From Fischerella sp. PCC 9431 (GTDB taxonomy: Bacteria; Cyanobacteriota; Cyanobacteriia; Cyanobacteriales; Nostocaceae), in contig NZ_KE650771.1 of NCBI RefSeq assembly GCF_000447295.1, positions 1,476,730 through 1,540,729 of the forward strand: a stretch of 64,000 nucleotides of DNA. The letters run 5' to 3'. Shown here in pieces: positions 58,855-59,857 of the stretch; positions within the stretch are counted from its first letter, which is position 1; every line of letters starts with the position of its first letter. The notes beneath the pieces were generated by a model. The model did not search any database. It was not told the origin of the DNA and worked only from the letters and a program-made list of their open reading frames with translations. A program made the translations under genes and the position numbers.

Positions 58855-59463
58855 TTAATGCTGGCATAGCTGGAAGTTTGCTTCAGTGTGTAGCGAACAA
58901 AATTCAACTTCTAACTCAGCAAGTGGAATTTCCTCTTGTCGAGCAATTCCCAAACGACGCAAGTTGAGAGATTGATTCATTGCTTCTTTTTCCCCAACCA
59001 CAGCAATCAGTGGAATCTTGCGTGCAGACAGTTCTCGAATCTTTTTGGCAATCGTGCGATCGCTCACATACAATTCTACTCTCGCGCCAATTTGTTTTAA
59101 CTTTCTGAAAATCATTTCTGCCCAATCCGCCGATTTTTCAGAAACTGAAGCTACAGCTATTTGCGCTGGACAGGACATCGGTTTCAATGCATAATCTGAT
59201 TCTTCTTCAGCATCCGCACTACCCACAATAAACATGTTTTTACGGAACTTGTGCCAGTGTCCAGAAAGTTCCCAAAGTGACCGATTCAATGCTACTGGCG
59301 ATCGCACTTCCTCAAAGCCATGATCTTGGTAGATCTGTCGCATAAAGTCTTCAATCAGCCGTAACAACTTTAACCCTATGGGATGCCAAAAAATCATCCC
59401 CGGACTATGTTCTTCAAAGTGAAATAGATCCATTACTTTTGCTAGTTCGCGATGATCAGACAT
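58855..59463 (-). CDS. Miniature threonyl-tRNA-synthetase-like protein
   Basis: A 202-residue protein matching two separated parts of ThrRS. Residues 3-95 match the start of the catalytic core: DHRELAKVMDLFHFEEHSPG, motif 1 FWHPIGLKLLRLIEDFMRQI with GFEEVRSP, SLWELSGHWHKFRKNMF, and YALKPMSCP, retaining the zinc Cys. Residues 96-195 match the anticodon-binding domain: ASVSEKSADWAEMIFRKLKQ IGARVEL, KKIRELSARKIPLIAVVGEK. Motifs 2 and 3 and the two zinc His are missing, so it should not aminoacylate. AGGAGA precedes ATG 59463. It is preceded by two Thr leader attenuators. Confidence 0.8.
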   Translation of the reverse strand: MSDHRELAKVMDLFHFEEHSPGMIFWHPIGLKLLRLIEDFMRQIYQDHGFEEVRSPVALNRSLWELSGHWHKFRKNMFIVGSADAEEESDYALKPMSCPAQIAVASVSEKSADWAEMIFRKLKQIGARVELYVSDRTIAKKIRELSARKIPLIAVVGEKEAMNQSLNLRRLGIARQEEIPLAELEVEFCSLHTEANFQLCQH

Positions 59464-59496: not shown

Positions 59497-59530
59497 AATA
59501 AAAAACCCCTCCAGGTCAACCTAGAGGGGT
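59497..59530 (-). terminator. Attenuator terminator 2
   Basis: On the minus strand ACCCCTCTAGGTT pairs with ACCTGGAGGGGT, followed by TTTTTTATT. The 3' arm resembles the CCTGGAGGGA at the end of leader 2, so those two can compete for the same ACCCCTC. It lies 34 bp before the ThrRS-like start. Confidence 0.8.
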
Positions 59531-59562
59531 GATTGAGTCTCGATCGCACACAGCATCTATCC

Positions 59563-59628
59563 TCACGTCCCTCCAGGCGCGATGGTTGTGGTAGTGGTAG
59601 TGAGGTGAATAAACCGACAAATAAACAT
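59563..59628 (-). CDS. Threonine leader peptide 2
   Basis: A 21-codon frame from ATG 59628: nine residues MFICRFIHL, then six Thr, then IAPGGT and TGA at 59563. AGGA lies 9 bases upstream. The six consecutive Thr codons are ACT ACC ACT ACC ACA ACC. The Gly-Gly codons GGA GGG are part of the antiterminator arm. Too short to be found by ordinary gene calling; I infer a regulatory leader rather than a functional product. Confidence 0.75.
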   Translation of the reverse strand: MFICRFIHLTTTTTTIAPGGT

Positions 59629-59652
59629 TTGTTTTTTCCTAATTTGAATGGC

Positions 59653-59692
59653 AATAAAAACTCAAAACCCTCCTGGGTATTACCTGGAGGGT
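59653..59692 (-). terminator. Attenuator terminator 1
   Basis: On the minus strand ACCCTCC pairs with GGAGGGT across AGGTAATACCCA, followed by TTTGAGTTTTTATT. The 3' arm CAGGAGGGTTTTGAG nearly repeats the CAGGAGGGTTGTGAG at the end of leader 1, the mark of mutually exclusive terminator and antiterminator pairing. Confidence 0.8.
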
Positions 59693-59731
59693 AGATGGAG
59701 TGCTATCGAATTTCAGAGCCACGCGATCGCC

Positions 59732-59791
59732 TCACAACCCTCCTGAGTTGATAGTAGTGGTGGTAGTTGTTCGGCGGACGTTTACTTGCAT
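59732..59791 (-). CDS. Threonine leader peptide 1
   Basis: A 19-codon frame, ATG 59791 to TGA 59732, reading MQVNVRRTTTTTTINSGGL. The six Thr codons are ACA ACT ACC ACC ACT ACT. It ends, as does leader 2, with Ile-x-x-Gly-Gly-x-stop, and the Gly codons GGA GGG can pair with the terminator's 5' arm. It starts about 30 bases past the likely transcription start. Confidence 0.75.
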   Translation of the reverse strand: MQVNVRRTTTTTTINSGGL

Positions 59792-59829
59792 GGCGATTTC
59801 AAAACCTTAAATATTACCGATTTAATTCC

Positions 59830-59857
59830 ATTAAAACAAATTTCTGCTGAGTGTCAA
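59830..59857 (-). promoter_or_regulatory. Promoter of the leader / ThrRS-like transcript
   Basis: On the minus strand TTGACA (59852-59857) and TTTAAT (59830-59835) are 16 bp apart. A consensus -35 with a 5-of-6 -10 predicts a start near 59823, about 30 bases before leader 1. It overlaps the 5' region of the divergent M23 gene. Confidence 0.65.

Follow-up and report, generated by a model that had tools for sequence, protein, structure and literature searches.

The window analysed here, a stretch of 64,000 nucleotides (64 kb) from Fischerella sp. PCC 9431, contains on its minus strand, between positions 59497 and 59857, a series of elements in the order promoter-like pair, leader 1, terminator 1, leader 2, terminator 2 and U tract, followed by a gene. 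The -35-like hexamer TTGACA (59852 to 59857) and the -10-like hexamer TTTAAT (59830 to 59835) are separated by a spacer of 16 bases, in agreement with the promoter proposed in a preliminary description of this DNA. Of 28 loci, the window among them, 24 had a similar pair, TTGACA followed after 16 to 18 bases by a TATAAT-like hexamer, within the 110 bases preceding the aligned first unit, versus 191 of 1,400 shuffles. Leader peptide 1, MQVNVRRTTTTTTINSGGL followed by a stop, is encoded at 59732 to 59791 and includes the threonine codon run ACA ACT ACC ACC ACT ACT (59753 to 59770); a class-1 leader was present in all 27 readable relatives of the first scan. The end of this leader contains segment A1 (CAGGAGGGTT, 59736 to 59745), the predicted 5' arm of an antiterminator, and is followed by the terminator 1 stem-loop (59667 to 59692, -14.1 kcal/mol), in which B1 (59692 to 59683) pairs with C1. 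The U tract of terminator 1 is broken up in the window (GGGTTTTGAGTTTTT), and for this reason terminator 1 should be weaker there than terminator 2. Leader peptide 2, MFICRFIHLTTTTTTIAPGGT followed by a stop (59563 to 59628), includes the threonine codon run ACT ACC ACT ACC ACA ACC (59584 to 59601) and ends with segment A2 (CCTGGAGGG, 59569 to 59577), likewise a predicted antiterminator 5' arm. Terminator 2 (59505 to 59530, -20.1 kcal/mol), in which B2 (59530 to 59520) pairs with C2, has its U tract at 59504 to 59499, and an intact class-2 unit was observed in 25 of the 27 readable relatives of the first scan.

In each unit, segment A at the leader end has the core GGAGGG, segment B in the terminator 5' arm has CCCTCC or CCCTCT, and segment C in the 3' arm again has GGAGGG. 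Since A and C are both complementary to B, they compete for it, and the near-repeat of the leader end within the terminator 3' arm had thus been described correctly. The same is true of the two consecutive frames with six threonine codons, each followed by a terminator: exactly two runs of six consecutive ACN codons occur on both strands of the window, and these are the two leaders, the mean in 100 dinucleotide-preserving shuffles of the window being 0.00. The single-sequence folds of the window were only mildly better than those of shuffles (z of -2.12 and -1.71), and the case therefore rests on comparison between loci. A search of the whole window against Rfam gave no match at gathering level; up to E 10, the interval produced seven matches, including NsiR1, PyrR, ncr1575 and Thr_leader, which were taken as chance given scores far under threshold. 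The match to NsiR1, a nitrogen-stress RNA, lay at 59497 to 59562 on the minus strand (20.1 bits against a threshold of 39, E 0.13), and its overlap with terminator 2 is probably a matter of chance.

The gene that follows (58855 to 59463, minus strand), for which the preliminary description gave no identity, was identified by Pfam, TIGR00418 and alignment as an internally deleted copy, 202 aa long, of a short threonyl-tRNA synthetase (mini-ThrRS), in which an N-terminal portion of the catalytic domain is joined to the anticodon-binding domain. The protein matches PF03129 (anticodon-binding) at residues 101 to 185 and TIGR00418 (threonine-tRNA ligase) in two separate stretches. Relative to its closest relative, the 398-aa mini-ThrRS of Pelatocladus maniniholoensis (L016), the gene as assembled shows an in-frame loss of 612 bases, or 204 codons, and there is a short imperfect similarity at the junction. 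PF00587 (class II core), found at residues 86 to 293 in L016, was absent from the window protein by Pfam search, and the lost part includes class II motifs 2 and 3. Because of this in-frame loss of 204 codons, the window copy is probably a decaying remnant, and the intact switch there probably governs a dead enzyme; with the catalytic core gone from the window gene, the working attenuator system is to be sought in the relatives. One full-length ThrRS1 (621 aa) is encoded elsewhere in the window genome. Among four genomes of the genus searched at E 1e-20, one had a full mini-ThrRS, one (the window genome) the deleted copy and two ThrRS1 only.

Full-length mini-ThrRS proteins are 395 to 423 aa long, and their match to TIGR00418 starts only at about position 163 to 170, indicating that the N-terminal editing region is absent; the Pfam content of L016 was confined to the class II core and anticodon-binding domains. 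A phylogenetic tree grouped the mini-ThrRS sequences (32 rows) into a clade of their own, with support of 100/100, distinct from 18 ThrRS1 sequences and three second copies of about 620 aa; the placement of the one deltaproteobacterial row that joined, L089, may reflect a long-branch artefact. We examined residues to which catalytic and zinc-binding roles were assigned, with Cys, His and His as proposed zinc ligands; these were present in 31 or 32 of the 32 full genes, and on this ground the full mini-ThrRS is probably active, presumably without proofreading of Ser-tRNA(Thr) in cis. A zinc-free enzyme was also considered, but none of the 32 full genes lacked the proposed Cys, His and His ligands, so that mini-ThrRS is not obviously zinc-free; zinc shortage may be a trigger of the switch. 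No common Pfam theme was apparent among 10 chosen neighbours from 10 mini-ThrRS loci. The analysis singles out a short type of ThrRS in cyanobacteria that has no proofreading domain and is likely to serve as an inducible backup.

The first scan of genome contigs yielded 78 relatives, 28 of them cyanobacterial (L016-L042 and L093); one, L022, has just 67 bases upstream and is not counted as readable. A genome search gave 20 further stretches, comprising 10 loci already counted, three loci of second ThrRS copies of about 620 aa and seven new mini-ThrRS loci (L163, L165, L166, L170, L171, L172 and L177). Two loci on the Acaryochloris marina plasmids pREC1 and pREC2 were added, giving, with the window, 37 readable cyanobacterial loci. 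At least one threonine leader unit was found before mini-ThrRS in all 37, in every case of class 1, and both units were found in 34, as expected from the earlier proposal that the threonine runs would be conserved in related genomes; these counts are not phylogenetically independent and include near-identical pairs (L017/L170, L027/L029 and L181/L182, 96 to 98%). The exceptions to the tandem arrangement were L036 and L177, in which unit 2 was absent, and L041, in which it had decayed. The class-1 leaders of L025, L032 and L037 were less rich in threonine.

Several of these loci had features of their own. L181 and L182 lie on pREC2 and pREC1 of A. marina MBIC10699, plasmids that are conjugative by typing, and each carries mini-ThrRS with both leaders; a cysteine-tRNA ligase gene adjoins mini-ThrRS on pREC1 and a Fur-family regulator lies nearby on pREC2. 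In L170 (G437, reverse strand), an insertion with palindromic repeats, recognized by eye, separates the leader 2 stop from terminator 2, both otherwise intact, making this locus a natural mutant of the second attenuator. The class-1 leader of L166 (771 to 842) has seven consecutive threonine codons, an altered peptide end and GGGGGG as segment A, so that A:B pairing there would need G-U pairs. The mini-ThrRS gene of G413 (L171) has decayed by in-frame stops. In G350 (L177/L113), unit 2 and the front half of mini-ThrRS have been lost, and the neighbours are of the M23-peptidase and GidA/TrmFO types, as in the window. In G399 (L172, 1177 to 4108), both upstream leaders are intact and mini-ThrRS is split by an IS605-type insertion carrying, on the opposite strand, a 476-aa ORF that matches OrfB_IS605 and a Cas12f1-like TNB domain.

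The units were specific to mini-ThrRS. None was found at the 30 ThrRS1 genes searched (31 loci, as one gene appears as both L002 and L154) or among the three second ThrRS genes of about 620 aa (L178-L180), the sole match at E 0.1 in these sets being a terminator-like stretch in L148 (15.3 bits). In a control that applied a stricter rule for ORFs with threonine runs to both strands, two matches were obtained outside the 520-base upstream region in the 28 cyanobacterial loci of the first scan (137,847 bases), two in 50 non-cyanobacterial thrS loci (249,961 bases) and four in 38 other cyanobacterial thrS loci (165,788 bases). A covariance model, R2, was built from 54 units and in the window genome detected only the two units above noise, with the next best match at E 0.14. 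Two large genome searches were then made with R2 under strict filters, by which weak matches are lost: in 388 genomes of the order, 60 matched at E 0.01 or better and 13 at E < 1e-9, and in 386 genomes from across the phylum, partly the same as the 388, two matched at E 1e-6, pointing to a patchy distribution of the attenuator system in the phylum. A mini-ThrRS gene or a remnant of one adjoined the match in 13 of the 13 genomes with E < 1e-9. Among the weaker matches (47 of the 60 genomes), no mini-ThrRS was found at the five loci inspected (L114-L118). One of these, L115 (G271, minus strand), has an ORF at 1459 to 1554 of the reverse complement with nine consecutive threonine codons, no GG-x-stop and no mini-ThrRS nearby, and is possibly a negative example.

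Compensatory changes had been proposed as a check on both stems, and the outcome differed between them. For the terminator, 90.1% of the cells in the 54-unit alignment were standard-paired and 58 cells were changed on both sides, compared with 1 to 12 after sliding of the partner and an average of 23.8 after shuffling; as the alignment was fitted to a model containing the terminator stem, this count leans in the stem's favour. Terminator energies had medians of -15.7 and -19.1 kcal/mol, and in several class-1 units the U tract begins a few bases past the stem. For the antiterminator, 86.4% of the A:B cells were paired and only seven were changed on both sides (5.0 in shuffles); the core is nearly invariant, and the count is therefore uninformative, speaking neither for nor against the pairing. 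The A, B and C cores are in fact all nearly invariant. The A:B duplex energy was reached by 0 to 20 of 200 shuffles for class-1 units and by 0 to 32 of 200 for class-2 units.

The leader ends provide a separate view of segment A. The peptide ends in GG-x-stop in 44 of the 54 units, and among these 44 (the 10 units without GG-x-stop being omitted from the count) the two glycine codons are GGA in 43 and GGG in 43, while glycine codons in 25 of the mini-ThrRS genes are mixed (163/144/107/235) and the third positions of leader threonine codons vary. In L033, L034, L039 and L040, an indel alters the end of the leader peptide and GGAGGG is retained. Collectively, these patterns show segment A to be constrained at the RNA level, as judged from the sequences. 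Unit 1 of L031 has TAA directly before GGAGGG, and a ribosome terminating at this stop should still cover segment A. When units were compared between loci, the nearest unit at another locus belonged to the same class in 54 of 54 cases (mean identity 0.82), while the two units within a locus shared 0.52 on average. As every unit has its closest relative in the same class elsewhere, the tandem pair appears to be old, and the duplication seems to predate the spread of mini-ThrRS through these hosts.

The switch was then modelled by folding, with the RNA covered by the ribosome removed and a footprint of the A-site plus 12 bases assumed. For some stall at a threonine codon, every one of the 54 units was expected to have at least six A:B pairs by the time C is transcribed; when the ribosome was placed on the leader stop, 0 of 54 units reached six pairs, which follows from A being masked. 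The mean number of A:B pairs under a stall was 10.6, versus 6.0 with segment A shuffled, and the shuffled segments still reached at least six pairs in 53.7% of cases. Given that shuffled segments can also reach six pairs or similar duplex energies, a single unit is weak proof by itself. When C was present and the RNA at equilibrium, a stall lowered the terminator below 0.5 in 26 of 54 units (14 of 28 class-1 and 12 of 26 class-2); in the window, it was brought to 0.10 in unit 1 and to a lowest value of 0.80 in unit 2. About half of the units, including unit 2 of the window, would therefore have to switch kinetically, with A:B forming first. In 46 of 54 units, the terminator hairpin was less stable than the fold from A to B taken alone.

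We consider it highly probable that the locus type represents two classical ribosome-mediated transcription attenuators in series before an auxiliary, editing-less mini-ThrRS. Several features of classical attenuators were observed, namely ORFs with threonine runs at 37 of 37 loci, an intrinsic terminator between leader and gene, and a gene in threonine metabolism (ThrRS). The ribosome-mediated layout claimed in the preliminary description is supported by the conserved threonine runs and the terminator pairing; in the window, the catalytic core is missing from the gene under control. With Thr-tRNA in good supply, the lead ribosome would reach the leader stop and cover A (GGAGGG), leaving B (CCCUCC) to pair with C and cause termination. 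When Thr-tRNA is short, the ribosome would stall in the threonine run, A:B would form before C is made, and polymerase would pass. The isoacceptor reading ACC and ACU would probably be the first to run short. Polymerase would have to pass two terminators, the effects of which may multiply to give lower leakage and a steeper response. By this direct reading of tRNA charging, mini-ThrRS would answer failure of ThrRS1, shortage of threonine or an inhibitor.

Other explanations of the leaders and terminators were weighed against this model. The GG-x-stop end is kept at the amino acid level in most units, and poly-Thr could itself slow ribosomes, as would suit nascent-chain arrest peptides or functional threonine-rich micropeptides, with the sequence kept for the peptide and not for tRNA sensing. 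However, the leader N-termini vary widely among loci, Gly-Gly is fixed at the codon level, and the leader threonine codons are strongly biased to ACY; moreover, the four loci with a changed peptide end keep the RNA segment, and the class-1 peptide of L031 stops before it. We therefore regard peptide-level function as improbable. Even less probable is that the terminators are constitutive insulation or the ends of unrelated short transcripts, with the leader ORFs fortuitous. The median strengths of the terminators and the equilibrium terminator value above 0.5 at every stall position in 28 of 54 units would suit such a role, but runs of six threonine codons are not expected even once in the window, the units accompany mini-ThrRS at all 37 loci, and the A, B and C cores are near-invariant. 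GGAGGG is also similar to a Shine-Dalgarno sequence, and GTGA is the end of many leaders, raising the idea of an internal ribosome-binding site for reinitiation at GTGA and of translational regulation. With a GGAGG-to-GTG spacing of just 3 bases, TAA and no GTG at that place in 11 of 28 class-1 units, and a reinitiated ribosome that would run into segment B, this is the least credible of the three, and attenuation in series by threonine codons remains our preferred reading.

A further possibility concerns the window gene itself, which might encode a new regulatory or dominant-negative protein, consisting of the motif 1 helices and the anticodon-binding domain, that has kept the starvation switch. 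The deletion is exactly in frame, and the promoter, the leaders and a ribosome-binding-site-like sequence are all intact, as such a protein would need. Against this, the deletion was found in one of the four genomes of the genus, with the full gene in one and ThrRS1 alone in two, and relatives likewise carry disrupted copies of mini-ThrRS, with stops in G413, a deletion in G350 and an IS605-type insertion in G399. The window copy differs from L016 by 28 amino-acid-changing and 21 silent codon differences, compared with 28 and 37 between L016 and L018 over the same part, in a rough count that takes in the diverged C-terminal tail. A new function is thus unlikely, though less so than the alternatives for the leaders, and we favor a decaying remnant.

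The use of threonine and its codons was next compared between the leaders and the gene. In the aligned core, the share of threonine was 1.4% for the 32 full mini-ThrRS genes (median of 5.5 residues), versus 3.2% in 30 ThrRS1 genes, 3.3% in three second copies, 5.0% in 47 non-cyanobacterial ThrRS genes and 5.8% in 29 ORFs of the window; these counts omit L040, which is incomplete (32 of 33 genes kept), and three of 50 non-cyanobacterial loci with short alignments. In the 12 codons before the glycine pair of 44 units, ACC or ACT (ACY) accounted for 237 of 292 threonine codons, as opposed to 34 of 182 (five ACC) in the mini-ThrRS genes. The four-codon boxes of Ala, Gly, Pro, Val, Ser, Leu and Arg in the same genes were 52 to 57% NNY, and the ACY share was 70% in ThrRS1 and 53% (415 of 786) in the window ORFs. 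Fisher tests gave p values of 1e-42 for leaders versus mini-ThrRS genes and 4e-31 for mini-ThrRS versus ThrRS1, which, the rows being related, are not exact probabilities. At three threonine columns conserved in 29 to 32 of the 32 genes, ACA and ACG interchange and ACY was found in 5 of 29, 3 of 32 and 0 of 32. On the contrary side, some poorly conserved threonine columns were all ACT (4/4, 3/3 and 3/3) and one stood at 6/19; furthermore, the 5th percentile of NNY in 50 conserved Ala, Gly, Pro and Val columns was 0.15, so that a single column low in ACY is unremarkable.

From these sequence patterns, the mini-ThrRS gene looks to be built for translation under the very starvation that induces it, in that a threonine-poor mRNA with mostly ACA and ACG codons would still be translatable when Thr-tRNA is short. 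One Thr-tRNA isoacceptor presumably reads both ACC and ACU in these hosts. The chances that the whole forms a self-consistent starvation circuit seem to us evenly balanced. In such a circuit, serial leaders of mostly ACC and ACU codons would monitor how far one Thr-tRNA isoacceptor is charged and release a nearly threonine-free, mostly ACA/ACG synthetase that could be made exactly when ordinary proteins, including ThrRS1 with its 70% ACY, could not; the circuit would move in cassette form, with conjugative plasmids among its carriers, and, as far as searched, no well-supported case of cyanobacterial leader-peptide attenuation would precede it. What is new here is the contrast between threonine-poor, ACY-avoiding mini-ThrRS genes and ACY-rich leaders, classical attenuation itself being known. 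In PMC1183508, it is stated that highly sensitive attenuation demands a particular choice among synonymous codons, the thr leader is given as having eight ACC codons, and selective charging of threonine isoacceptors is described as verified. The codon pattern fits that account, with sensitive codons in the sensor and insensitive ones in the product, and if the proposed model is true, the system would offer a clean test case for the theory as presented there, as well as a naturally occurring pair of switches in series that respond to one and the same amino acid.

Such a system would also extend classical attenuation to a phylum in which, according to PMC4833913 (2016), it is not reliably known, in keeping with the earlier remark that attenuation of this kind is little documented in cyanobacteria. 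A search of titles and abstract openings in the open-licence literature found, among the matches listed, no leader-peptide attenuator from a cyanobacterium.

Among the known systems, the enterobacterial thr attenuator is a single unit and controls biosynthesis. The locus scored 13.5 bits (E 7.7) against its Rfam family, Thr_leader (RF00506), which has a threshold of 55. T-box riboswitches control aminoacyl-tRNA synthetase genes by tRNA charging and operate without a leader peptide; no T-box match was found at gathering level in the window or up to E 10 in the interval. An auxiliary, antibiotic-resistant TrpRS gene of Streptomyces coelicolor is reportedly under ribosome-mediated attenuation (Vecchione and Sello 2010), and the present system would resemble it in that a leader-peptide attenuator governs a second, auxiliary aminoacyl-tRNA synthetase, while differing in amino acid, phylum and leader; we know of no tandem units in the S. 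coelicolor attenuator. With the enterobacterial thr operon, the loci share a leader of threonine codons followed by a terminator and control codons rich in ACC (eight in the thr leader; PMC1183508). The T2 protein (thrS2) of Anabaena PCC 7120 is, according to PMC4787780, a second ThrRS with impaired editing that is induced in a Zur-dependent manner when zinc is short and ThrRS1 fails. Like T2, mini-ThrRS would be a second ThrRS backing up ThrRS1, with inducibility known for T2 and predicted for mini-ThrRS. Unlike T2, a Zur-repressed protein of about 620 aa that includes an editing domain, mini-ThrRS is shorter, has no editing domain and is preceded by attenuators; the second copies compared above (L178-L180) were taken by length, with no orthology to T2 implied. 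Finally, the Salmonella mgtCBR leader has two ORFs with attenuators in series, sensing ATP and proline (PMC3641672), an arrangement matched here by two leader-ORF attenuators in series, except that in the present case both leaders carry threonine runs.
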